From positions 1 to 37,137 of the forward strand of contig SOKL01000120.1 of NCBI GenBank assembly GCA_004376265.1: 37,137 nucleotides of DNA, given 5' to 3'. Position numbers and translations under genes: made by a program. Of the stretch, positions 3,558-32,017 are shown one piece after another. The notes under the pieces are model-generated. The model ran no database searches. It was not told the DNA's origin and saw only the letters and a program-made list of their open reading frames with translations. Source of the DNA: Candidatus Thorarchaeota archaeon. GTDB taxonomy: Archaea > Asgardarchaeota > Thorarchaeia > Thorarchaeales > Thorarchaeaceae. Numbering within the stretch: the first letter of the stretch is position 1; every line of letters begins with the position of its first letter.

Positions 3558-3838
3558 ACTCCTGTTTCTGTTGATTGTAACCTACTCTGAACTGAAGAGG
3601 AAAGTCTGCAGAAAATGCAAGATAGACTAATCTAACGTATCTCGCATAGGCGACCTTTGAAATAAATGTTCTGACGTTTCTTTCGTTGAGTTTTATTCCC
3701 GCCTTCAATCAAGTAGGTTAAAGCTTCACCAGAGTCTAAGAATATAACTCTAACGATAATTCGAACTTGTAGAAATTTAGAACACGTGTTCCAAGATTTT
3801 CGAAAGAGAAACTCAGTGAAGAAAGAGAATCTGTAAAA

Positions 3839-3955
3839 CTACCTCCGATTCTTGAGACGCCGACGCATAGCTCTATCTGATTGGAGTCGATGCTTTCGGA
3901 GAACTGTGGATGTACCTTTTGAACGGGCCAGTTTTGTCTTTTCTGCATCAGCCAT
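3839..3955 (-). CDS. Putative small basic protein (38 aa), not in the ORF track
   Basis: Minus strand ATG 3955 to TAG 3839: MADAEKTKLARSKGTSTVLRKHRLQSDRAMRRRLKNRR. Strongly basic, with 'GGTTGATC' just upstream as a weak SD-like element. No family recognised. Confidence 0.35.
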   Translation of the reverse strand: MADAEKTKLARSKGTSTVLRKHRLQSDRAMRRRLKNRR

Positions 3956-3960
3956 TTTGA

Positions 3961-4470
3961 TCAACCAGGGTGAGTGGACCACAGTCAACGCAAGATGTTG
4001 TGGGGGGACAAACCCTAGGGCTCGTCGACCCCACTGTGTCTCAATGATGCCGGGAGGTGCACACGGAGACAGCGAAATGACCTCATTGGAAAATGAGGAT
4101 CATAAAGGAAGTCAGGAACTCGCGTAGAGGTAACGAAGACTCTGCGCATCTTGGTCCGTTGGTTCACGGTCACTATCCAACAGCCCATAGAGAGTATGGA
4201 GAACTTCCGCGTTCTTTTGGAGGGTTGATGTGGGTCGTGTTTCCTCGGTCATTGTTCGCTTCACCATATGTTTCGTTTTCTGTGGTACAACTCACCTCTA
4301 CTTCCACTGTATTTTCTAATAAGACTTGGCGTTACGTGGCACTATACTCAGGTGTTACCCACGTAATACGTAGAGCAGATTGGGACAATATACACACAGA
4401 GGCCCATCAGACGGCGCGAGGTCTCACTAAACAACACCCTACAAACCACGTTCCAATAGAAAGAAGGGGG
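3961..4470. ncRNA. Candidate structured non-coding RNA region, class unknown
   Basis: ~560-nt gap between CDSs with no credible ORF and several inverted repeats: 4077-4103 (11 bp, one bulge, GGAA loop), 4122-4147 (8 bp with one G-U on +), 4000-4034 (GTGGGG/CCCCAC), 4037-4071 (TGTCTC/GAGACA), 4185-4199, 4332-4366 (TTACGTGG/CCACGTAA). Confidence 0.35.
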
Positions 4471-4519
4471 GAGGGGGGGTCACATTTTCAGCATATTTCT
4501 AGAAAGAATCGAAGTAGGT

Positions 4520-7500
4520 CTATGGTGATTTACTTTCACTATTTCCATTTCGTTCTTCAAAGAACTCCGCGAAATCAAACTCAGGGATTGAAGTTTCATG
4601 TTCCTCACACTGAACAATCAATTCCTTCTCAATGGCTTCCGAAACGAGAGTACAACCTCGTGCCTCGGAAACTCCGAAAGTAGTTACTCCTCGTGCAAGA
4701 TAGATCGGTTTCGAGCAGTGTTTTGTTTCCTGAGTAAGAAGAAGTTCTTCGAGGTGACGATAACGTCTCGGGAAACCAGCAGGTGTAGCAATCTTGTAGA
4801 ATCGGTTCAATGATCCATCCATTGAAGTTTCGAAGATGTAATCCAGCATCTCTGAAACTTTCGCATCCAATATTGCGGATGGTTTACCACTGTCATATAG
4901 ATCATCGAGATATGTGCCGACTTGCATCCCGTATGATTCCATCTTCCTGTTATGCTCAATGGAAGCTGAACGTACAGTGATGAAAGCACAGATGAGATTG
5001 CGAGTCTGAACAGCGCGGATTATGTCAGATATGGGGATTACTCTCATTGCTTCCTCATCGAACATCTCAAACTCCTGCCGGAAGTGTGTGACTGCCGAAA
5101 TGAAAGCTGCAACAATACCCTCTTCGAATCCTCCTTTCACGATTCGAGAGTATATTGGAATTCCGCTGCTCTTATGCATTACAATAACTCCGATGATGTT
5201 GTCTACATCATCAAAGCGGCGTTTGTTCGCTAAATCGATAGCAAACTCAGTCTTCTTCTTGCGTACATAGAATACGCGTCCAAACAGAGAACCTATGGAA
5301 ATAGCTGCAATTGTTAGTATTGGAGGAAGGTAAGTTTCAAGCCAAATTAGAGGAATAAGTTCTGGAGGAGTGTATTGAGTGACCAGGAAATCATAAACTT
5401 GATCCAGCGCAAAATTCGTCTTATTAACAAAGATACGAATCGAATATCCTATACCATCATACCATGGCGGTTGAATGAAAATTGAATATACTCCCGGTGA
5501 TACTCCAGATGATACTTCAGTCAGGTATCCTTCCATCTCCACTTCAAATGATCTATAGAGTCTATAGTACACCTGGGCCCCAACAACAGGAATTCCAGTG
5601 TCAACCTCTATGAGCATTAGAGTGATATTTAGATCATGACGTTGATACCAAACAGGAGAATCCATTTCTATACGTATTGCTCTCTCTTGAACAATGAGTG
5701 AAAATAACACTACATCACTTTGGTATCCAGTTTTGTTTGCGGTTATAGTGAATTCGTATAATCCCGTCTGATTGGTATTGAAGAAAATCAAATATCCTTC
5801 TACTTGTGGAATCATATCATAGGAAAGAATCGAATAACTTGTGAAATCGACATTTATCGATGCATCACTTATGTTTGTAGGAACGCTGCTAGTCTGTTCA
5901 TAAAATAGTAGTATCTGAAATGGTTGGTTTACGCCGACTGATGAGACTGTTGAATCACCTGCAATTTGAATTTGGGTAGATATTGTTGTTGCAGTCAATG
6001 TGAAGGACATGAACTGAGTCCGGTGGTCAATAAGTGAAGCGTTAATTGTTAGAGTATATGTCCCGGTATCAGAGGGGGTCAAGTTGAATGAGAAGAACCC
6101 ACTTCCTTCATTCGTAGCGGCCGTATAGGAAATACCTGTTTCTGGCGATGAGTGTACTATGCTCACAGTTGCACCGTTTATGCCAAAACCAGACCCATTC
6201 GTATATCGTACAACCAATCGGTATTGTTCGCCAAAACTGATTTGAGCAGATGTTCCATTTTCAAGGGAGAGATTAGTTGTTTTTTCACCAACCAGAATGA
6301 AAAGGGCATCCTGGTCTTCTTCATAATATTGTTTTGAAGCGGAGATTGTGATTGCATAACTATCTGAGTGCACGGCAGTAAATTCGATTGAGTAATTACC
6401 GTCACCAAAATCATTCAATCCACCCCATGAGACCCCATCAGTTGTGCCTGAAAAATCAATACTCACATTTGCTCCAGGGATTCCTGCCCCATAGAAATCG
6501 GTATAACTAAAGGTCGCGAGAAAGTTGTCACCAATACCAATCTCTGCTGTTGGATTATCAATCAACAGGTCATTATCTGTTAAACTGATTGTCACTAGAA
6601 ACGTGCAAGATGCATCATCATAGAATGGTCTACTTGAATTAACTACAACAAGGTGGGAACCAGGTCCAACTAATGAGGTATCAAAAGTACCCACCCATCT
6701 ATTTTCAATTAGAACAGATACAAAATGGATAGTAGTAGCGGACCAATTTGCAGTTATGGATGCAGCAGGATCATTCAGAAATTCATTGTTCTCCGAATCT
6801 TGGTAATAAACGAAATTCGATCTGCTGAGTCCACTTTCTGTGTCTATAACTGTCTCATGGGGATAGAGAATTGTTCTATGATGAACCTCAAAATTGATAC
6901 TGCCAAATGCTAACTCAGTGCCGTTTGTCCACGAAACAATTACTTCCCAAATACCCGCAGTTGTATTAGCTGATCCAAATTCCAACTGAGAACCATTTAT
7001 CTCACCATTGACTCCTCCACTTATCATCTCCGAATACCATTCAGTACCATTTGGCATCAACCAAATGACTTCAACATTTTGTGGAGCACTTGTAAGGGGA
7101 GAATCTGATCCAATTTGGATTGATGGCTTTGTTATGTTTGTACTTCTAAATACAGTCTCAGGGAGCCAAGTAAGAGTGGGTTCGTTCAACATGAGGGTCT
7201 GTAAATTTCTAACATAGTTTGGTGATTCCAAGTGGACCTCCCACCATCCTAGATTATAGAGAATCGAATTCGGAATAATAATCCTACCTGATGAAATATT
7301 GCAAGATGAAGTCATTGGCGTCCCAGATGGATTAAAGACGGTAATATTCTCCCAATCACTAGGAGTTCTGATGATCAATGTAAAATCATCTATGTCAGGG
7401 ATTGCGCCAATGAATGTGAAGAATTCTATCTTTGGATTACCATTTAATTCTGAATTGAAAAGAACTCCATCATCTAACAGAGAAGTAGATTTTGTTGAAT

Positions 7501-8599
7501 TGATAAATCGACTGTTGAGCATTGTAGCAGAATAATCAAATGAGTAGGACAAATCAGCGGCAAGTTCAACGAGCACATTGTCAGATCTCCATAGAGATGA
7601 ATTGACAATACTTGCTTGTCCAACACTTGCACCTGTTATGATTGTTGAATTTTGACCAATCCTTAGTGTAATATTTGCTTCATCAAACGTGGGTCGAGTT
7701 TCACCAACGAAAAGTATGTTATCCAGTGTGAATTCAATCCATTGGTGAGTGTGAGACACATCTCCGTCAATATAAAGCCCAATTTTGAATTCAAACTCAC
7801 TACCGATACCAGTTAAGTCCACTAATATATCTCCAGTGTTATTCCAATAGGAAGTGAACATGGATTCCGTCGTATTAGTCCAAATTAAGGTGTCATCAAT
7901 ATATACTCGGAGAGTTACATTGGGATTACTGTCAGGACCCTTAATATAGACGTAATCAAAATTTAGAATGAAGTTGTCCAGATAGGGAGTATTGTTTACA
8001 ACCTGGGTCCAATATACAGTACTACCATTGGCATAGAGATAATCTCCTGGTGAACCATACCCCCTACCTATCAAAGTTACTTCTTGATTGCTGTATCCAG
8101 CAATCATGTCCACATTTGAATCAGGACGATAACTAGTTGCATCCCATCCATAGGGATTAAATGAAACAGACCCTGTTGGATTTGTTGTAGATCCAGGTAT
8201 ACCTTCAGCTAAGCTACCATTCTCGATATACAAACGATTAAGATTCCATAGATCAACTGTTACTCTACTTCCAGTCCAATTATTCAAGGTATCAATTGAC
8301 AGGTTTGTTTTGACATTTGATTTTGAATCGGTTTCGGCATGAAGTATTGATGTTGTCTTATTTCCCGTTTGCTCAATCACCGCAGGATCAAGTGTTCCCA
8401 GAAAATCAATATGGTCGGATACAAGACCTCCATCCAAAGGGGCAATTTTACCGGTGTCATCAGTAGTGTCACTCGTTAAATCAAAATCTGCATTACTTGG
8501 ATAATTATCAAATGATGAGAAACTTCCATAGACTAGAATTAGGACGACAAATGCAACTACAAGTTGTCCCTGTTTCATAACTGTAACCCCGGAACTCAA
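4520..8599 (-). CDS. Large cell-surface type I membrane protein: signal peptide, multidomain Ig-like ectodomain, TM helix, longin/roadblock-like cytoplasmic domain (paralogue 1; likely start Met at 8578)
   Basis: N-term 'MKQGQLVVAFVVLILVYGSF'; repeated Ig/Big-like beta segments; many N-x-S/T sequons; TM 'PPILTIAAISIGSLFGRVFYVRKKK'; cytosolic 'IIGVIVMHKSSGIPIYSRIVKGGFEEGIVAAFISAVTHFRQEF'. Confidence 0.85.
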   Translation of the reverse strand: MSSGVTVMKQGQLVVAFVVLILVYGSFSSFDNYPSNADFDLTSDTTDDTGKIAPLDGGLVSDHIDFLGTLDPAVIEQTGNKTTSILHAETDSKSNVKTNLSIDTLNNWTGSRVTVDLWNLNRLYIENGSLAEGIPGSTTNPTGSVSFNPYGWDATSYRPDSNVDMIAGYSNQEVTLIGRGYGSPGDYLYANGSTVYWTQVVNNTPYLDNFILNFDYVYIKGPDSNPNVTLRVYIDDTLIWTNTTESMFTSYWNNTGDILVDLTGIGSEFEFKIGLYIDGDVSHTHQWIEFTLDNILFVGETRPTFDEANITLRIGQNSTIITGASVGQASIVNSSLWRSDNVLVELAADLSYSFDYSATMLNSRFINSTKSTSLLDDGVLFNSELNGNPKIEFFTFIGAIPDIDDFTLIIRTPSDWENITVFNPSGTPMTSSCNISSGRIIIPNSILYNLGWWEVHLESPNYVRNLQTLMLNEPTLTWLPETVFRSTNITKPSIQIGSDSPLTSAPQNVEVIWLMPNGTEWYSEMISGGVNGEINGSQLEFGSANTTAGIWEVIVSWTNGTELAFGSINFEVHHRTILYPHETVIDTESGLSRSNFVYYQDSENNEFLNDPAASITANWSATTIHFVSVLIENRWVGTFDTSLVGPGSHLVVVNSSRPFYDDASCTFLVTISLTDNDLLIDNPTAEIGIGDNFLATFSYTDFYGAGIPGANVSIDFSGTTDGVSWGGLNDFGDGNYSIEFTAVHSDSYAITISASKQYYEEDQDALFILVGEKTTNLSLENGTSAQISFGEQYRLVVRYTNGSGFGINGATVSIVHSSPETGISYTAATNEGSGFFSFNLTPSDTGTYTLTINASLIDHRTQFMSFTLTATTISTQIQIAGDSTVSSVGVNQPFQILLFYEQTSSVPTNISDASINVDFTSYSILSYDMIPQVEGYLIFFNTNQTGLYEFTITANKTGYQSDVVLFSLIVQERAIRIEMDSPVWYQRHDLNITLMLIEVDTGIPVVGAQVYYRLYRSFEVEMEGYLTEVSSGVSPGVYSIFIQPPWYDGIGYSIRIFVNKTNFALDQVYDFLVTQYTPPELIPLIWLETYLPPILTIAAISIGSLFGRVFYVRKKKTEFAIDLANKRRFDDVDNIIGVIVMHKSSGIPIYSRIVKGGFEEGIVAAFISAVTHFRQEFEMFDEEAMRVIPISDIIRAVQTRNLICAFITVRSASIEHNRKMESYGMQVGTYLDDLYDSGKPSAILDAKVSEMLDYIFETSMDGSLNRFYKIATPAGFPRRYRHLEELLLTQETKHCSKPIYLARGVTTFGVSEARGCTLVSEAIEKELIVQCEEHETSIPEFDFAEFFEERNGNSESKSP

Positions 8600-8701
8600 A
8601 GAAAGAACTTCGAATTTAAGTTATAGCTATACTTCGTATCACGGCATAATAAGGAAGACAGGATTACACATAATTAACCGCAATTATGATAGCTCATAAA
8701 A

Positions 8702-11700
8702 TCAATCGGAGTCCAAATCGACATCATTGTCTAACGGATATACTGGAAGGATGTACTCGTCCTCAATTGCCTTCATAACCCGAATATAGACATCATCTCC
8801 TGATACTTCAGTGGAAGCCAATAAACGGATCAATCTAGCAAGATTGAATGTACCATCCTTTTCTTCCAATGGGATTGCCTTCTCAATGAACCTCAATGGT
8901 TTGGGAAACTTCTTCTCACCAATCTGATAGCTCCTGACAAGAATTCCGTCCATAAGGTCATCAAACAACCATTCGAGTGTCTTGCTTGTCTTAGCATCAA
9001 TAATCTGTGCACTAAGCAAAGCCAAAGAGTCGTCAAGCATCATTCCGATTGCACGAGCGTACGCAACCATTTTCATTTCCTGTTCGACAGACGGTGGTGT
9101 CATATTCATGAATGCACAGATAAGATTGTCAGTTGGTACAGTGCGAATCACTTCGGAAATCGGAATCAGAGTATAAGTGTCAGATTTTCCACTGGTTTCA
9201 AACTCTTTTCTGAAATGCATGATAGCTGTGATGAACGCAGAGAGTATTCCTTCCTCAAAACCACCTTTGAACACTTTTGAGTAAATGGGAACTCCACTCA
9301 GTTTGTGAAGGACAAGGAATCCAAGAATGTTATTCGCATCATTGAATCTATTTTTAATAGACACGGCGGTTGTATGTTTCTCTCGTCTTCTTCTTGAACG
9401 AACTCTTTGTCCTGTAACTGCGGCTATTGCTACAGTCGCGACGAGTCCAATTTGCCCCGAGAACGTAAGTAGAGTCTCCATCGTTCGTCTATTTACATCA
9501 ATCTGAGGATCGAGAGTTGAGCTGAAATCATGAACCATTTCGTGATTATCTTTCTCAATTGATATCCTGACAGTGTGTGTTTCACTATCAGCGCTAGGCA
9601 TTAGAAAAGTTGCTGAATAATTACCATCACGTGTTTCGTTCATCAAAGTATCAAAATAGAGAAAATTGCCAGGACGATAGATCGCAATAGTGACGTTAGC
9701 GCCAGACACATTTTTTCCCGTATCTGATTCAACTATCTGGACCTCGATTGTAAATGGTGCTAGCTCCAGACCACCAAGTGAAGAGATGGAACCCACTATT
9801 ACTTCAACGTCATTCACCAGGAATGAGAGGACATGAGTTTGATTCTCGTATCCTACTTTTGAGAATGTGATTCGAATACTGTAGTCCCTTGAAGCCAGCG
9901 GCTCTAATGTTAGATTGTAATGACCATTTCCAGTGTTCCTAACTGTTGCCCATTCTGATCCTTCTTCTGTTGTTTCTACTGTAGCTGCATCTATGCCTGA
10001 ACCATTGTAAGACATTGCATAGAAGTAATCAAAGCTGTACTGTCTACCATAAATTAGGGGGGTCAGTGGACCAGTTGGAGTTTCAAGAGTTGTTAGGAAA
10101 TGAGACTTGATTGTTATCACCAGAGGGACAGTCTCAAAGTAGGGAGCTGTGGAAACAACATATATTTTGAAATTTCCCGCTCCTACCAGAGCAGTGTCAA
10201 AATCAGCTTGCCACCAATTCTTCACAACATCTGGAGTGAATTCAATGTCAGTTCCAGACCAGTTACCAACAACTTGGGCTCCGTTATTCATTAGAAATTG
10301 ACCATTTTCTGCGTCCAAGAATCTTAAGTAAACTGTGACAGGTTGACCGACAACAGTCTCAAGAGTGTTTGAGAAGACTGACTCCAGAACTGCAGTGTGA
10401 TGCAATGCAAAGTCTTTGGAACCGAATGCGAGCTCAGTACCATTTGACCACATAAAACTCACACCCCATACTCCTGCTGTTGTGTTTGTGGGTCCAAAGA
10501 TAACAGGAGAGCTGCTCGCATTACCAACTCCTCCTGTTGTCAAGGTTTCTGCCCAGACTGTGCTGTTTGGTAAAGTCCATGTGAAATTAACCGGATTTGA
10601 TAGAATGGGTGTTTCAGTAGCTGTTCCAAGAGAAACATCAAGTCTCCCTGAATCAAAGCTATGAAAGATGCTCTCATTAACCCAATCCAATGAACCTGAA
10701 TCATAGCGTTCAACCTCAGCTGATGTTGCATAATTAGGTGCATCACCTGTCAGCTTCCACCAACCTAAGCGATCTAGGAGAAGAATCTCTGGAATGGTTA
10801 TTAATCCAGATTGGATTGTACTGCTAGATGTAACGTCACTCAAGAATGGGTCAAAAACTGTAATATTCTGCCAGTCACTTGCGTGGATGATCCTAAGTGT
10901 GAGATCTTCATATACTCCTAAAAATCCTAGATAGGTGTACATCTCTAAATTGCCGCTCTTACCAGATTCAATCGTGTAAGCTACTCCTTGTTCCAATATA
11001 TCAGTGGTCCAACTCGAATTGAGGAATCGATGATTCAAGAGTCGCGCATTATAATCGAAAGATACACTTGTATTGGAAGTTATTGAAAAGTCAAGGGAGC
11101 TTATGTCCCAGTAACTTTGATTCACTATCTGACCGAATCCAACACCATTAGAACCTATCATTGCTGTTGTTGAACCAATGACTGAGAACTCTAACGACAC
11201 CTCATCACAATCGGGAGGCGATTCTGCTACTAGTGAAATGTCATCAATATAGACCTTGATGTATTGAGTATTGGTTGCTTCATCCGGAAAACCATCCAAG
11301 TCATAGTCATTATCGCCATCGACTACCAGTGTGTTGTTAATGACTAGTCCAATCATGAACGTAGTCAAACCAGGAGAAACATTAACAGTGATCGGTATTT
11401 GTCCTGTTGAAAACCATGTACCTCTTTCAGATAAAGAAGGCAAATCAATGTTATAGACAGATTCGTCATCGATTAATACCTGAAGTGAAAAATCCCCACT
11501 GAAACTTGGATTCAGGAGACCCTGCAAGTAGAGATATTCGAAACTTAGAAGAAATTTGTCAGTGTGAGGAGTTATGTCAATCGTCTGATTCCAAAAAACA
11601 GTTGTATCAGCATAATGTGTGTATATGTGGTTAGGATTATTTGTCACCTCAGCTTGATTCTGAACAGAAATATAGTATCTACCGCTGTCCTCATATGAGA

Positions 11701-12247
11701 CCATTTGATTCTGGTCAAGATCTGAATTATAACTAATTGCAGACCATCCGAATGGATAACTCTCTAGGGTGCCATTTGGATTCAGAGTATAGCCAGCGAT
11801 GCCTCTATCAAATGTGCCATTCACAACATACATCTTTTCAAGATTCCAGACATCAACTTCTGCGCTACTTGCCACCCAATTGTGTTCAGTGTCAATTGTT
11901 AGAATCTGTTCCGTGTTTGTTGCTGTGTCAGTACGTGCAGAAACATTGCCGGTTTCGACGTATCCACTCTGTTCAACAATAACAGGATTCAGTGTACCTG
12001 ATGCTGGGACGGGTACAGGTGCATCAGATAGTGACCAAATTTCAGGGACTGATACAATGGGAGATTCAATTCTGTCTGTTTCCGGTAGAAATATAGGGTT
12101 ACTTGAGTCAAGCAAAAGAATATCTTCAAATGAATTAGATTCCGTCGAGAATTGCATCGAGAAGTGAGTAATCGGAAATACAATAAGAAGCAAAAGAAGA
12201 ATACTAATATTTTGGTATTTCCTTGTTTCCATCCTCATAACTTCCAA
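8702..12247 (-). CDS. Large cell-surface type I membrane protein with longin/roadblock-like cytoplasmic domain (paralogue 2)
   Basis: N-term 'ISILLLLLIVFPITHFS'; ectodomain co-linear with the neighbouring gene; TM 'QIGLVATVAIAAVTGQRVRSRRRR'; cytosolic 'ILGFLVLHKLSGVPIYSKVFKGGFEEGILSAFITAIMHFRKEFE'. Confidence 0.85.
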   Translation of the reverse strand: MEVMRMETRKYQNISILLLLLIVFPITHFSMQFSTESNSFEDILLLDSSNPIFLPETDRIESPIVSVPEIWSLSDAPVPVPASGTLNPVIVEQSGYVETGNVSARTDTATNTEQILTIDTEHNWVASSAEVDVWNLEKMYVVNGTFDRGIAGYTLNPNGTLESYPFGWSAISYNSDLDQNQMVSYEDSGRYYISVQNQAEVTNNPNHIYTHYADTTVFWNQTIDITPHTDKFLLSFEYLYLQGLLNPSFSGDFSLQVLIDDESVYNIDLPSLSERGTWFSTGQIPITVNVSPGLTTFMIGLVINNTLVVDGDNDYDLDGFPDEATNTQYIKVYIDDISLVAESPPDCDEVSLEFSVIGSTTAMIGSNGVGFGQIVNQSYWDISSLDFSITSNTSVSFDYNARLLNHRFLNSSWTTDILEQGVAYTIESGKSGNLEMYTYLGFLGVYEDLTLRIIHASDWQNITVFDPFLSDVTSSSTIQSGLITIPEILLLDRLGWWKLTGDAPNYATSAEVERYDSGSLDWVNESIFHSFDSGRLDVSLGTATETPILSNPVNFTWTLPNSTVWAETLTTGGVGNASSSPVIFGPTNTTAGVWGVSFMWSNGTELAFGSKDFALHHTAVLESVFSNTLETVVGQPVTVYLRFLDAENGQFLMNNGAQVVGNWSGTDIEFTPDVVKNWWQADFDTALVGAGNFKIYVVSTAPYFETVPLVITIKSHFLTTLETPTGPLTPLIYGRQYSFDYFYAMSYNGSGIDAATVETTEEGSEWATVRNTGNGHYNLTLEPLASRDYSIRITFSKVGYENQTHVLSFLVNDVEVIVGSISSLGGLELAPFTIEVQIVESDTGKNVSGANVTIAIYRPGNFLYFDTLMNETRDGNYSATFLMPSADSETHTVRISIEKDNHEMVHDFSSTLDPQIDVNRRTMETLLTFSGQIGLVATVAIAAVTGQRVRSRRRREKHTTAVSIKNRFNDANNILGFLVLHKLSGVPIYSKVFKGGFEEGILSAFITAIMHFRKEFETSGKSDTYTLIPISEVIRTVPTDNLICAFMNMTPPSVEQEMKMVAYARAIGMMLDDSLALLSAQIIDAKTSKTLEWLFDDLMDGILVRSYQIGEKKFPKPLRFIEKAIPLEEKDGTFNLARLIRLLASTEVSGDDVYIRVMKAIEDEYILPVYPLDNDVDLDSD

Positions 12248-12334: not shown

Positions 12335-13147
12335 TCAATCACCATTGGTAATAATTCTGCCTTGAGCAATGACATCATGCTTGTGGATACTCTCGAGTGA
12401 ACGTGCTTCTGCAAACATCTCAAGGTCTCGGTCCAGATACTTTTCTTTCGCACGTTGTAAGATGTTACGACAAACATCTTCGACAAGCAGTGGGTTGTCA
12501 TGCATAGCTTTTGTAACATGCACTTCATCCTCTAGTTTGAGAAGCGAGTATGTCTTGCTAGAGAATGAATTCTCAATGATCTCAATCATTGTTCCATAAG
12601 TTGGGATTTCATCAATCTCACCGACAACACGTAATCTTCCAATGGCTCGCTGAATGTGAGTGAGTCCCTTATTGTTCGCCATGCAATGAGGGCAGACTGT
12701 ATTCCCAATTACCTTCAGTTCCACTTCATGCATGAATGGTTTGTCTTTTTCCATTGTTGTTAATGCTGTGACATCACAGACTTCCCAAGTTCTTTTTCTG
12801 GATATAGGAGTATGACTCTCGTAACCAAACTCAAATTCAAACTTGACTTCACCCCGTTTGAAACTATGCTTCTTTGAAAGACCCTCTAGTATCCGCATCT
12901 GGATATGTTCAACTGACGAATGAACTCTGAACTGGTCACTGAGTTCCTCAGTCATGGATTCCACAAGTCGTGACATATGCACGCCTTTCAATTCCGCAGA
13001 GAGGTCAATGGTGATGTCAACCTTCGGAAGTATGTGATGCCTGACACCACTACGTTCAGTGATCACGAATGTCTTGAGATTCTTAACACCGACTTTACTA
13101 AGTTGAATTCTGTGTTTGGGCTGTTCATTCTGAGTGTCAAAGACCAA
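12335..13147 (-). CDS. mptA: GTP cyclohydrolase MptA/FolE2 family (TTG start)
   Basis: 'KVGVKNLKTFVI...', 'KGVHMSRLVESMTE', 'VIGNTVCPHCMANNKGLTHIQR' typical of MptA-type cyclohydrolases. Confidence 0.88.
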   Translation of the reverse strand: MVFDTQNEQPKHRIQLSKVGVKNLKTFVITERSGVRHHILPKVDITIDLSAELKGVHMSRLVESMTEELSDQFRVHSSVEHIQMRILEGLSKKHSFKRGEVKFEFEFGYESHTPISRKRTWEVCDVTALTTMEKDKPFMHEVELKVIGNTVCPHCMANNKGLTHIQRAIGRLRVVGEIDEIPTYGTMIEIIENSFSSKTYSLLKLEDEVHVTKAMHDNPLLVEDVCRNILQRAKEKYLDRDLEMFAEARSLESIHKHDVIAQGRIITNGD

Positions 13148-13179
13148 ATTATACGCCTCTCAGTTGTCAAGGGATGGCA

Positions 13180-13629
13180 CTATCGTTTGTAGCAACCCGT
13201 GTTACCTTCGCTCTCACTCACACAGACCTTTACACCAAAATCTTTGGGAAAGTCTAGATTTTTTAAGATATGTTGAGCGAGTAGTTCGGCTGTAGTGGCT
13301 TTTGTTGGAATTATCACACAGTCTTCCTCAGGGAAGACATACCTTTTCTCGCCAACATGCACTTCGATGAATTCATCTGATTTGGAAACTTTGATGGTTT
13401 CAGAATCTCTAGGAAGCAAGACCTGATGGTCCAAGGTTTTGCAAATCTTGATAGCTTTTGATTTCACCTCTCTGAAATCGTAAACCATACCATCATCATT
13501 CAACGGGCCTGTGAGCTTTATCCTTAGTGAATAGTTATGCCCATGAAGCTTCTCTACCTCGTCCTCACTCTTTAGAAAATGAGACGCGCTAAAGTGCATT
13601 CGTTGGTCCTGTACACGCACGCTATGCAT
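13180..13629 (-). CDS. 6-pyruvoyl-tetrahydropterin synthase (PTPS/QueD) family protein, EX2HGH variant
   Basis: 'MHFSASHFLKSEDEVEKLHGHNYSLRI', 'TLDHQVLLP', 'VCVSESEGNTGCYKR'. Confidence 0.9.
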   Translation of the reverse strand: MHSVRVQDQRMHFSASHFLKSEDEVEKLHGHNYSLRIKLTGPLNDDGMVYDFREVKSKAIKICKTLDHQVLLPRDSETIKVSKSDEFIEVHVGEKRYVFPEEDCVIIPTKATTAELLAQHILKNLDFPKDFGVKVCVSESEGNTGCYKR

Positions 13630-13692
13630 TTGAATGCCTCCAGGTACAGGCCAAGCTATGAAGAGGTTGCATGTAAAACTGTCGGAAGTGCA

Positions 13693-15483
13693 CTATTGAT
13701 TATTTCCTCTCTGATGTTCAAAGGCTTCAATCAGTTCATCGACCGATGTTGCTTGTGTGGGGTTCTTATCATCACGCCAGCGACCAGTAAATCTTGGAAA
13801 ACGTATTGCAAGTCCTTTATCCTTCAGGTACTGTTTTCCAGCTGGATGGGTAGGACTTTCTGTTATCTCATCACCAAGCACTTCGATCACCTCGATGGGC
13901 TCGAACCAAACGTCCGCCTTAATATCCGAGATAACTTTAGCATGTTTTGAGTCAATCTTGTGATGGTCAAGCCGCTCCTTGAACTCGACCAATATATCAT
14001 CAGTAAAACCAGTTCCGATCTTACATACTGTGGGGAATGTATCATCATTATGATCATAGACTGATGCAAGAAATGCACCGTAGAGCCCAGTTCTTTTTCC
14101 GCGACCGTGAATTGCACCAACTAATACCAAATCCATAGAATCTGCGAAACCCTCGGTATAAGATGCCTTCAATTTGATCCAGAGCCAGCTTCTAGAACCA
14201 GCTTGATAGGTCGATTCTTTGTGAACAGACTTAGCTATCACACCTTCATGACCGGTGCTGATAGCTTCTTCGAATATCTCTTGAAGCTGTTCCGGATCCT
14301 CTGTTAACTCAGCAACTGTGAGATGAACGTATTTAGTGACCTGAATAGTTTTCTCTATCAGTGCTCGTCGTTTTAACATAGGATGTGATGTGACGTCCTC
14401 ACCATTGAGAAACAGAATATCAAAGAAGTAGATGGCAACAGGAACTTCCTTTCTCGTAGCCTCGATGTCGGTCTTTCGTCTTCGCCGCATTAATTCTTGG
14501 AAAGGACGCATCTTGCCGGTAGCTGGGTCTATTGCAACACATTCACACTCCATAACACAAGTATCGGCTTTCACGTGTTCTAGGACCAAATCTACAACAT
14601 CAGGGTATTGTGATGTAATAACCTCTTGTCGCCGTGAGTAGAGAACAACCTCATCACCATTCTTGTGAACCTGAATCCGCTCCCCATCGTACTTATTCTC
14701 AACTAGTGCCTTCCCACCGGTTTTTTCAATTATCTCGGAAGCACTTGACAGCTTCTTTGCAGCCATCATTCGAATGGGAATTCCCACTTCAGTCTTTATC
14801 GACCTCACAGAATCGATTCCTTGGTTAGCGAGTACTGAAGCCACATGACTCAGATCACTACAGACATTGAACGCATTTTCAATCTCGCTTCTTGCATCCC
14901 GATTGCCGGTGAAAGCAGTTGACAATGCATCAATGATTCCCATGTTACCAAAACCAAGTCGGAGAGACCCCGTCACTGTCCTGAGAATGTATCGTGCTTC
15001 TACCGGCTCCGCATCAGTGAGAAGGCCGACTAGTCTGGAAACCTTGATCTTATTACTCCCGGGTCCTGATACTTTCGAAGTCTGGTTCAAGGTCTCGTAT
15101 ACCGTGAAGACTGTCAGGTCCTCCGCGAACAAAGTAGCTTGGGCGCTTTCCTGCAATAGTTGCTCTCCTGCGCTCCCAATATCTCCCGCTTTCTGCAACG
15201 TCTTCTGGACATCACTCTCGGAAACAGAAGCAGCTGAAGCCACTACTTGGACTGCCATTTTCTCCGCGATTCCTATCTCTGGTTGGCTCTTCCAGTCAGG
15301 ATGCAATTTACCCATGGTCAGAGATATTATACGTTCTATCTCTGACGGGTCGACCTTTTCTAGCAGCTCTGAGAATAATTGGATTTTATCAAGAGTGCCA
15401 CTCGTTGTCTCGATCGTGTCATAAGCTTGAGCTAACGTCGCGTATAGCAAGAATTCACGCTCAGAGTCAAAGGCGCACCACAT
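13693..15483 (-). CDS. lig: ATP-dependent DNA ligase (start may be TTG at 15450, '(M)LYATLAQAYDTIE')
   Basis: Nucleotidyltransferase motif 'ALVENKYDGERIQVHKNGDEVVLYSRR'; 'HEGVIAKSVHKESTYQAGSRSWLWIKLK'; OB-fold C-terminus. Confidence 0.95.
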   Translation of the reverse strand: MWCAFDSEREFLLYATLAQAYDTIETTSGTLDKIQLFSELLEKVDPSEIERIISLTMGKLHPDWKSQPEIGIAEKMAVQVVASAASVSESDVQKTLQKAGDIGSAGEQLLQESAQATLFAEDLTVFTVYETLNQTSKVSGPGSNKIKVSRLVGLLTDAEPVEARYILRTVTGSLRLGFGNMGIIDALSTAFTGNRDARSEIENAFNVCSDLSHVASVLANQGIDSVRSIKTEVGIPIRMMAAKKLSSASEIIEKTGGKALVENKYDGERIQVHKNGDEVVLYSRRQEVITSQYPDVVDLVLEHVKADTCVMECECVAIDPATGKMRPFQELMRRRRKTDIEATRKEVPVAIYFFDILFLNGEDVTSHPMLKRRALIEKTIQVTKYVHLTVAELTEDPEQLQEIFEEAISTGHEGVIAKSVHKESTYQAGSRSWLWIKLKASYTEGFADSMDLVLVGAIHGRGKRTGLYGAFLASVYDHNDDTFPTVCKIGTGFTDDILVEFKERLDHHKIDSKHAKVISDIKADVWFEPIEVIEVLGDEITESPTHPAGKQYLKDKGLAIRFPRFTGRWRDDKNPTQATSVDELIEAFEHQRGNNQ

Positions 15484-15864: not shown

Positions 15865-16908
15865 TTGAATATGAAGGATTGGCAAAACCTGATCATGTAT
15901 GGTGATTGTCTTGATGCCATCAGGAGTTACCGAGAGATGCTCAGTGGACAGGTTCGTCTAATCTATATTGATCCACCTTTCTTCTCGGGAACTGATTATA
16001 CCCTAAAATCACGTTCAGGCGCAGATAGAAAATCAGCAGGAGTTCTGAGAGAAAAGGAAACATACAGCGATAAGTGGGAAGGAGGTCTCGAAGAATATCT
16101 CGAGTTCATGAGGGTCAGACTCGAGGCAATGAAACCATTACTCAAAGAAGATGGGTCTCTTTGGGTTCATGTTGACGGGCATGTTTCACACTATATCAAA
16201 GTAATTCTCGATGAGATATTCGGATATTCCAATTTCGTTAATGAGATAGTGTGGAAACGTACAAACAGTCCGAAAGCCCAGAGCAAGGGATTCGGTAGTC
16301 AACATGATGTCATCCTTCTCTTTGCTGCAAATGCATCAAAGTTCAGAACAAATCAAGTCTATAGAGATCATGACGAGAAATCTCGGAAACCATATAGCTA
16401 TGAAGACGACAAGGGTAAGTTCAGACTTATTGAAATTGAAGCGCAGGGTATCCAGAGAACGGAGGGGCGAAAGCAATTTGAGTGGAGAGGGAGGAGAGCT
16501 CCCTATCTCTACCGAAAGGAAACACTAGATGATTGGTGGAATATGAATCTCATCTACAAAAGCAAGAATGGAAGATACACAAAGAAACAGTATCTTTCAA
16601 ATGTACCAGGCATTGTGGTTTCTGATTTGTGGATTGATATTCCTCCGGTTCAAGGTCTGTCAAAGGAGAATACTGGGTTCCTAACTCAGAAACCAGAATC
16701 GTTACTAGAAAGGGTCATTGAATCAGCCACAGATCCAGGAGATCTTGTTGTGGATTTCTTTGCTGGGTCCGGAACAACAGCTGTAGCAGCAATGGCCACT
16801 AATCGACGCTGGATTCTTTGTGATTCATCTGAAGCTGCAATCACGGTCGCAAAAGAGAGGATTGAGAGAACCTATAGGTCTGTTTCTTATTCCCTAGTTA
16901 AAGTATGA
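15865..16908 (+). CDS. Site-specific DNA methyltransferase (beta-type N6-adenine/N4-cytosine)
   Basis: 'RLIYIDPPFFSGTDYTL' (motif IV DPPF) precedes 'PGDLVVDFFAGSGTTAVAA' (motif I); 'TQKPESLLERVI'. GGAGG upstream. Confidence 0.92.
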   Translation: MNMKDWQNLIMYGDCLDAIRSYREMLSGQVRLIYIDPPFFSGTDYTLKSRSGADRKSAGVLREKETYSDKWEGGLEEYLEFMRVRLEAMKPLLKEDGSLWVHVDGHVSHYIKVILDEIFGYSNFVNEIVWKRTNSPKAQSKGFGSQHDVILLFAANASKFRTNQVYRDHDEKSRKPYSYEDDKGKFRLIEIEAQGIQRTEGRKQFEWRGRRAPYLYRKETLDDWWNMNLIYKSKNGRYTKKQYLSNVPGIVVSDLWIDIPPVQGLSKENTGFLTQKPESLLERVIESATDPGDLVVDFFAGSGTTAVAAMATNRRWILCDSSEAAITVAKERIERTYRSVSYSLVKV

Positions 16909-24611: not shown

Positions 24612-25169
24612 TCATTCTGAATTAACCGAATCTTCATTCTCTAAGGCTTTCTTCTCTTCTTTAAAGGGATCCCAATCACTCTTTCTCTTAGGTCGCTCCC
24701 ACTTCCACCAGGACAGATCTAATCGCATTCCAGACCAAGGAGAAATGACTTCAGGAACTTCAATCCTCCATAGGATAATCAAACCTACTATGAACTGTAT
24801 TGGAATAGGATAGATGACTAGGAAGCTTCCAAACAAACCTGTGAGACTTAGAACAATAACTGTGGGCAACAGAATACTGAATAAACCGATCAAGATTGCA
24901 CCATCTTTCGAACTCTTGGCTTGGTAGTATTTCACAATCCAATAAGAATAGAGTAAATTCAGAAGACATAGTGGTAGAAAGATGTAGGGATTAGCAAATA
25001 TCCAAAAAAGCCCGTAAATCCCTGAATGAACGTTGTAGAAACCGAACATGCCCATATTCGGAATAAAGCTAAAGGGGGAAAAGATTGTAACGAAGAACAT
25101 AATCATTGCGATAATCCCAGGACTCACTCCATAGAGTTCTATCTCAGTGGAAATATTATCCTGATTCAT
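24612..25169 (-). CDS. Hypothetical multi-pass membrane protein
   Basis: 185-aa ORF with about four hydrophobic segments and a charged C-terminal tail. Confidence 0.6.
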   Translation of the reverse strand: MNQDNISTEIELYGVSPGIIAMIMFFVTIFSPFSFIPNMGMFGFYNVHSGIYGLFWIFANPYIFLPLCLLNLLYSYWIVKYYQAKSSKDGAILIGLFSILLPTVIVLSLTGLFGSFLVIYPIPIQFIVGLIILWRIEVPEVISPWSGMRLDLSWWKWERPKRKSDWDPFKEEKKALENEDSVNSE

Positions 25170-30409: not shown

Positions 30410-32017
30410 TTGTGTTTTGACACTCAGGTGTTTCGTATGCCCAATACGGAGATAGATGAAGAATCAATTCCAAGATACAAACGAGGTTATGAATGGTTTT
30501 CTCACCTTGCTAACAGCGAGATGTCTCAAAAACCATGGCGACGTTTGGGTATATTCTCTTTCTACGATGAACCATTTGCTGAAAGTGACCGTTTGTATCT
30601 GTCACCAAAACAAGTCATGTTAACACTGGCGAAGATAGCAAAATCCAAGGAGTCTGGATTAGTGTTTGTCGTTGATGCCATGGAAAAAGGTGAAATGGGT
30701 CTTAGCACTGAATCCGGTTTCAACCAATTTATGGAAATATTCGATGGTTTGTTCCCTGACTCATCAAAGTTCTACTTTGGATCCAAGGATTCTGAGAGAG
30801 CATGGATACAGGAGTATTCATCTCTGAAGATACCGTTGAAGTGGCTAGTAAAGAGACCCAATGTATTTGCGGAAGTTCTGTCTGATGCCTCGCCTGTTGG
30901 AGAACTTGTTAGTCCAGGAGAGGCAGCGTTTGAGGATTTTTCGGGGATGATTGAAGTACTTGTGGACAAACTTGGACCACCTTCACTAACCGAAGAAGTT
31001 ATGGGCAAGATACGGAGCACCGAAAAAAGCGAATACGCGGGGGAAGCTGTCGGGATGATGACTGTCTTTATCAGTCCAGCAACAGCTGTTACACGAGGCG
31101 TGAAGTATCTAAGTAAATTCATGGGTCTTGTGAAAGACCGAAGAAAGCAGGAAGTAAAAGACGTCTATAATGAATGGACACAGAGAGTGAAAGAAGGATA
31201 CTCAGAAGAAAAACTCAAGAGGTTCTTTGATGATTCTCTGGATTTTGAGTCTGGTCTTATACAGGCAGTTGGTTCTTTCAAACCCGTTCTAATAGTACTT
31301 GAAACTAGAGGAACTTTTTACGATCTATTCCTACCACTTGTGCTCCAACATCTGGTGGAAGAGATTGGATACATTCCACCACACAGACGTCCGAAGAAAC
31401 AGATCGACGAAGAGAAAAAGGGATCAAGAGAGGAGGATTGGGATAATGAATCTCTCTCTTACGAGTCAATCGAATCTATCGAAGATGCCGATCTTCCACC
31501 AGTAACTGACCAACTGATTCAATCTATTTTAGATAAAGAGAATCCGTACGATAAGGCGGAAATTGATATCTCAGAGGATGCCTTTGAGGGAAAACCTGAA
31601 ACCATACTCTTCCTTGATGCGGCATCACATCTTTCAAAATTCAGCAAATCATTCAAGTTCGCTTTGAATTTGCCAGAAAAATATCCGAATATGTCAGTAG
31701 CAGCGTCGTTCTTCACCGACCGAGAGAAAATCAGTCAAGCACTTCAAGAAGGAGTTTTAGACTATGTGAAGGAACATGCACTCATCTTTGACCTGCATCC
31801 AGCTTTGTTCGATATGGTGACAGCGCGGATGCCAGTTTCAAAGAAAGCTTGGCTAAATGGAAGATTACAGGAAATGGAGAAAATCCGGTCAGATGGGGAG
31901 GTTGCTTTCCTCGAGTTCTCCAGTTCTGGCAGTCCCCAATGGGCGCTTCGAATAGTAGACAAGCCCGAGAGTGAAGCTCTGACAAAAATTCGCAGTTGGT
32001 TTAAAAGAGGAAGTTGA
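30410..32017 (+). CDS. Hypothetical protein, no recognised family (likely start MPNTEID at 30437)
   Basis: Long ORF on the operon strand with an internal acidic/Ser-rich linker; no motif recognised. Confidence 0.75.
   Translation: MCFDTQVFRMPNTEIDEESIPRYKRGYEWFSHLANSEMSQKPWRRLGIFSFYDEPFAESDRLYLSPKQVMLTLAKIAKSKESGLVFVVDAMEKGEMGLSTESGFNQFMEIFDGLFPDSSKFYFGSKDSERAWIQEYSSLKIPLKWLVKRPNVFAEVLSDASPVGELVSPGEAAFEDFSGMIEVLVDKLGPPSLTEEVMGKIRSTEKSEYAGEAVGMMTVFISPATAVTRGVKYLSKFMGLVKDRRKQEVKDVYNEWTQRVKEGYSEEKLKRFFDDSLDFESGLIQAVGSFKPVLIVLETRGTFYDLFLPLVLQHLVEEIGYIPPHRRPKKQIDEEKKGSREEDWDNESLSYESIESIEDADLPPVTDQLIQSILDKENPYDKAEIDISEDAFEGKPETILFLDAASHLSKFSKSFKFALNLPEKYPNMSVAASFFTDREKISQALQEGVLDYVKEHALIFDLHPALFDMVTARMPVSKKAWLNGRLQEMEKIRSDGEVAFLEFSSSGSPQWALRIVDKPESEALTKIRSWFKRGS

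Follow-up and report, generated by a model that had tools for sequence, protein, structure and literature searches.

Asgard archaea encode dozens of small GTPases together with longin and roadblock domains. Longin, roadblock and profilin domains have a common core fold, and Asgard cells are thought to have only a cell membrane (PMC10933270). Fusions of Asgard GTPases to longin or roadblock domains have been described, Thor-Rab is without a lipid anchor, and longin homologues are listed in the introduction to the same study only for Loki- and Odinarchaeota (PMC10933270). In the longin SNAREs Sec22b, VAMP7 and Ykt6 the longin domain is tied to the membrane at the cytosolic face and is N-terminal in a C-terminally anchored protein with no ectodomain. 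MglB, Ragulator (LAMTOR), TRAPP and MON1-CCZ1 are soluble or lipid-anchored complexes, and the AP sigma/mu chains and COPI zeta are soluble coat subunits with neither a transmembrane (TM) helix nor an ectodomain. The Thorarchaeal proteins described here resemble each of these in part: Sec22b is among the best structural matches to their tails, the MglB group has the same superfamily fold by Foldseek and the dimeric GTPase platform that would be expected, the coat subunits are top structural matches with the longin helix order and two C-terminal helices, and the same genome encodes an Arf-like GTPase joined to a member of the tails' domain family. They differ in that the longin-type domain follows a giant ectodomain and is placed at the C-terminus, without a SNARE helix, so that the platform would be the tail of a cell-surface receptor, acting on a GTPase in trans, whereas the soluble Asgard fusions hold theirs in cis. 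The longin fold and Asgard longins are already known; the longin-tailed surface receptor is the new arrangement, and no description of such an Asgard receptor was found in the open-access literature searched, earlier notice in subscription papers being possible.

The stretch of DNA analysed (37,137 nucleotides, hereafter the window) is one entire contig of a 3.04-Mb Candidatus Thorarchaeota draft genome, 91% complete and with 8% contamination. The tail family is independently present in 28 of 39 related genomes, so contamination of a single draft is of no concern. The preliminary description had reported two adjacent genes on the same strand, each encoding a signal peptide, a large ectodomain, one TM helix, a basic stop-transfer sequence and a tail of approximately 200 residues, the two tails being alignable by eye. 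Both open reading frames exist exactly as it had placed them (Table 1), hydropathy confirms the order of elements in both proteins, with 217-234 residues following the TM helix and basic stretch, and the tails align with 42% identity (E 3.7e-41). The ectodomains are 31% identical over 835 columns (E 6e-116), and this similarity of tail and ectodomain along the full length indicates a real tandem duplication producing full-length paralogues. Chance resemblance of the two tails is excluded by E 4e-41 together with the full-length paralogy. The tandem receptor pair is conserved in Thorarchaeota. Both frames are listed from TTG codons with in-frame ATGs just inside, and an ATG near 8578 for receptor 1 and one near 12238 or 12232 for receptor 2 are judged from the sequence to be more likely starts.

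Table 1. Positions in the window of the two receptor genes, their predicted domains and the conserved upstream genes.
Feature	Position	Strand	Basis or description
Receptor 1 (P0001), 1359 aa	4520-8599	-	Signal segment and ectodomain, then TM and longin-like tail
Receptor 1 N-terminal hydrophobic (signal) segment, aa 12-30	8510-8566	-	Hydropathy
Receptor 1 TM helix, aa 1094-1112, then RKKK stop-transfer	5264-5320	-	Hydropathy
Receptor 1 longin-like domain, aa 1126 to ~1261	4817-5224	-	Alignment to modelled tail; domain profile match 4796-5224
Receptor 1 winged-helix-like C-terminal segment (approximate)	4595-4816	-	Alignment to P0002 tail model; weak
Receptor 2 (P0002), 1181 aa	8702-12247	-	Architecture as receptor 1
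Receptor 2 N-terminal hydrophobic (signal) segment, aa 13-31	12155-12211	-	Hydropathy
Receptor 2 ectodomain, predicted beta-sandwich (Ig/macroglobulin-like) string, sequon-rich	9473-12151	-	AlphaFold2, Foldseek, sequons
Receptor 2 TM helix, aa 926-944, then RSRRRR	9416-9472	-	Hydropathy
Receptor 2 longin-like domain, tail residues 1-134	8954-9355	-	AlphaFold2 and Foldseek; domain profile match 8927-9355
Receptor 2 winged-helix-like C-terminal segment, tail residues 137-204	8744-8947	-	Secondary-structure order in model only
GCHY-1, conserved upstream neighbour	12335-13147	-	Pfam
PTPS, conserved upstream neighbour	13180-13629	-	Pfam
DNA ligase, conserved upstream neighbour	13693-15483	-	Pfam

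The gene order DNA ligase-PTPS-GCHY-1-receptor, often with a second receptor, is kept at approximately ten Thorarchaeal loci from different genera, indicating that the receptor locus is old and stable, and the three-gene block (12335-15483, minus strand) is a syntenic marker of it. No GTPase gene was found beside the receptors, either among 192 neighbouring ORFs at Thorarchaeal loci or in the window, and this counts against a simple operon model; a general lack of operons has likewise been reported for MK-D1 (PMC10933270). Upstream of the DNA ligase gene lies a solitary N6/N4 DNA methylase gene (15865-16908), and a methylase-like neighbour is also present at loci L040, L041, L047 and L048. Two window ORFs, at 24612-25169 (185 residues) and 30410-32017 (535 residues), gave no Pfam match. 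Between MetRS and receptor 1, approximately 960 bases (3558-4519) hold no convincing ORF, an overlapping 196-residue ORF on the plus strand (4093-4683) looking spurious; this gap is the place where some relatives have a DUF4332 gene. At nine loci a conserved 227-residue protein with two TM helices and an HhH/DUF4332 domain is encoded on the same strand directly downstream of receptor-1-type genes (L048:13994-14680, L049:11170-11853, L054:2158-2841, L055:3908-4603, L056:4730-5413, L069:4125-4823, L072:1416-2108, L076:3931-4611 and L078:2932-3612), and it is a possible functional partner of receptor-1-type proteins. A homologue of this membrane protein was searched for in the window and not found.

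The AlphaFold2 model of the receptor 2 ectodomain is all-beta (pLDDT 86.6) with low inter-domain confidence (pTM 0.50), a combination that fits a flexible string of beta-sandwiches. Foldseek matched it to the macroglobulin strings of complement C3/A2M, a Nitrosopumilus S-layer protein, titin and contactin, and Pfam returned weak CarboxypepD_reg/Big_1 similarity. N-X-S/T sequons numbered 1094 in the ectodomains of 42 Thorarchaeal proteins versus 503 in shuffled sequences (z +34), and 8 in their tails versus 28 (z -4.2); these z values overstate the certainty, as the 42 proteins are related and not independent, and the direction is uniform. In TM-bearing relatives from other Asgard families, sequons mostly numbered 2-6 per 100 residues of ectodomain compared with 0-1.4 in the tail. 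The sequon asymmetry and the basic stop-transfer sequence place the tail in the cytosol, the side on which the conserved C-terminal domain had been put from the outset. The ectodomain is probably glycosylated, and both proteins have the predicted features of a type I single-pass surface receptor or adhesin, with an N-terminal signal, the N-terminus outside, one TM helix and a cytosolic C-terminus.

Pfam and NCBIfam searches of the tails gave nothing above noise, the single weak Pfam match being to MAPKK1_Int (LAMTOR3 family; E 0.044), and PDB sequence profiles provided no usable relative. Alignment of the tail profile with the roadblocks of the same genome placed b1-b2-a1 in register, but weakly (P 4.5e-4, probability 33%). 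The receptor 2 tail was modelled with AlphaFold2 from an alignment of 42 relatives (mean pLDDT 84, pTM 0.81). The order of elements obtained, H2-8 E10-17 E23-28 H35-54 E70-74 E78-84 H90-107 H121-134 followed by a winged-helix-like part, is the longin order b1 b2 a1 b3 b4 b5 a2 a3 with its extra C-terminal helix; b3 is short (63-64) and there is an additional short N-terminal helix. Having two helices after the sheet agrees with the published description of longins (PMC10933270). When the model was compared with the PDB by Foldseek, nearly all of the top 50 matches belonged to the longin/roadblock superfamily, and comprised COPI zeta (best E 9.6e-4), small and medium chains of AP-1/2/3/4, Gtr1/2 roadblock regions, Fuzzy-Inturned, MglB, MON1A-CCZ1, Sec22b, Ragulator, TRAPP and an MK-D1 roadblock; only a Mediator chain was clearly outside, with one doublet-microtubule chain of unassigned class. 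The best E-value is modest, yet the consistency of superfamily among the top 50 is not. Target-length TM-scores (criterion >0.5) were 0.62 for Sec22b, 0.53-0.56 for the best AP sigma/mu chains and 0.49-0.53 for COPI zeta, other chains of the same kinds scoring 0.37-0.5. The beta/alpha order read by eye in the preliminary description is thus that of the model, and the longin/roadblock fold it had anticipated is recovered in its longin form; the fold class of the tail, as established by computation on the predicted structure, is longin-type.

A roadblock domain proper was dropped on account of the longin helix order, the two C-terminal helices in the model and the lack of a Robl_LC7 (PF03259) match in the window, a search of the whole genome having located none on the receptors' contig; a roadblock would have its a1 helix N-terminal and a single helix at the C-terminus. 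A profilin-like tail was also dropped, there being no profilin among the top 50 Foldseek matches. Conservation within the tail is among the highest in central helix a1 and strand b5, and residues H17, G21, R49 and E51 (tail numbering) are invariant. In the model, residues 152-204 show a helix/strand order resembling a winged helix, and the last 70 or so residues are, by element order only, winged-helix-like.

A profile built from the Thorarchaeal tails matched 108 of 149 Asgard genomes and a broader one covering the longin part matched 146 of 149, including 46/46 high-quality ones, sequences used in building a profile matching by construction. When all GTDB species were scanned with short patterns, of a kind that could miss others, only Asgard records matched. 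A survey of Asgard genomes for the TM-plus-tail architecture, as had been suggested initially, found it to be widespread: a TM helix lies approximately 13-51 residues before the domain at 14 non-Thorarchaeal loci in one set and 11 in a second, and 12 of the 25 Asgard families sampled, the Thorarchaeal family included, have the receptor layout, these proportions not being those of random samples as loci were chosen mainly for long open frames. The domain also occurs outside the receptor layout, on Ski2-like helicase, HEAT-like, TPR and winged-helix proteins and a HerA-like ATPase, as well as on a polytopic membrane protein (L203) and Thorarchaeal proteins of approximately 300 residues. In a Helarchaeal Ski2-like helicase (L086:5733-8393) it is at the C-terminus, and in the HerA-like ATPase (L202 minus strand, G090:C74) it follows the ATPase region. 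Its presence on helicase, HerA-like ATPase, TPR and HEAT-like proteins may mark it as a generic protein-interaction module.

Within the receptors' own genome the domain profile matched at 13 places: three are TM receptors and one is a 664-residue protein (L149; G000:C101:1-3000) in which an Arf-like GTPase (PF00025, E 1.5e-18) is joined to a longin-like domain. Over a dozen Thorarchaeal genomes hold this fusion at full length, and misassembly was rejected on that ground. The domain was present in every one of six orthologues from outside the profile (iE 1e-12 to 7e-15), with no match in reversed sequences. The conserved fusion, which is consistent with the Asgard GTPase fusions already described (PMC10933270), provides independent but indirect support for a GTPase link. 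PF00071 matches 24 times in the genome. Among 19 Ras-like GTPases of the genome, a Cys was present in the last six residues of one and a CaaX/CC end in none. Judged by these sequences, the GTPases examined are without a prenylation-type C-terminus, in line with the report on Thor-Rab (PMC10933270), and the receptor tails could therefore be membrane platforms for unanchored GTPases.

We propose that the receptor tail is a putative small-GTPase platform, a reading whose chances we regard as even. A rod of beta-sandwich domains would extend outside the cell, a single helix would pass through the membrane, and the longin-type domain with its winged-helix-like segment would form a membrane-fixed platform inside. 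Tails would pair via the conserved central helix or the sheet edge, as longin/roadblock domains do, and would bring Ras/Arf-like GTPases to the inner membrane face or regulate them there. When the outer part bound a ligand or clustered, a GTPase on the inner side would be positioned or switched, and Asgard GTPases without lipid anchors would have in the tails a membrane anchor made of protein. Counting against this GTPase-platform reading are the weak match between the tail profile and the roadblocks of the same genome, the lack of a GTPase gene among the 192 neighbouring ORFs and in the window, the presence of the domain on helicase, HerA-like ATPase, TPR and HEAT-like proteins, and the occurrence of longin domains in non-GTPase roles, in SNAREs and coat subunits.

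The resemblance of the ectodomain to S-layer and adhesin strings would also suit an adhesin or a protein of the envelope in which the tail does no more than dimerise, or tethers the protein to a scaffold or the cytoskeleton, the longin fold being a clustering device. The conservation of a1 and b5 and the core fold common to longin, roadblock and profilin (PMC10933270) agree with such a role, which nevertheless appears rather unlikely given the Arf-like GTPase fusion of this domain family and the absence of profilins from the top 50 structural matches. The best of those matches, COPI zeta and AP sigma chains, suggest instead that the tail might mimic or join an adaptor- or coat-like assembly, sorting the protein at the surface into vesicles or buds and not regulating a GTPase. 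A sigma/zeta-type longin would then be partnered by adaptin-like or Vps28-C domains, and Asgard ESCRT-linked proteins do combine Vps28-C, adaptin appendage and longin domains (PMC10936438). The surroundings of the receptors, however, contain no recognised adaptin or ESCRT gene, and MglB, Ragulator and TRAPP score similarly in Foldseek, so the preference for sigma/zeta is slight; we consider this coat-type sorting role, and likewise those partners, unlikely. It is highly improbable that the winged-helix-like end makes the receptors membrane-tethered regulators of nucleic acids resembling one-component sensors. The element order of residues 152-204 and the presence of the domain on a helicase and a HerA-like ATPase point that way, but there is no Pfam HTH match above noise, and the winged helices of ESCRT-II and GTPase regulators bind proteins.

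The tail family puts longin-type domains in Thorarchaeota too, and the absence of Thorarchaeal longins from the introductory list in PMC10933270 is probably because Pfam models miss them. Extending the GTPase-platform reading to the whole phylum, Asgard TM receptors would pass outside contacts directly to Ras/Arf-family GTPases via a covalent longin platform, a prokaryotic system for signalling or trafficking from surface to GTPase that would predate lipid-anchored GTPases; we put this forward tentatively, as possible though somewhat doubtful. Receptors with longin tails offer a concrete, testable answer to how Asgard GTPases reach the membrane, and are a candidate precursor of eukaryotic receptor-to-GTPase and cargo-receptor coupling. 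Recurring across Asgard, they may represent an ancient wire from the cell surface to internal GTPase switches.
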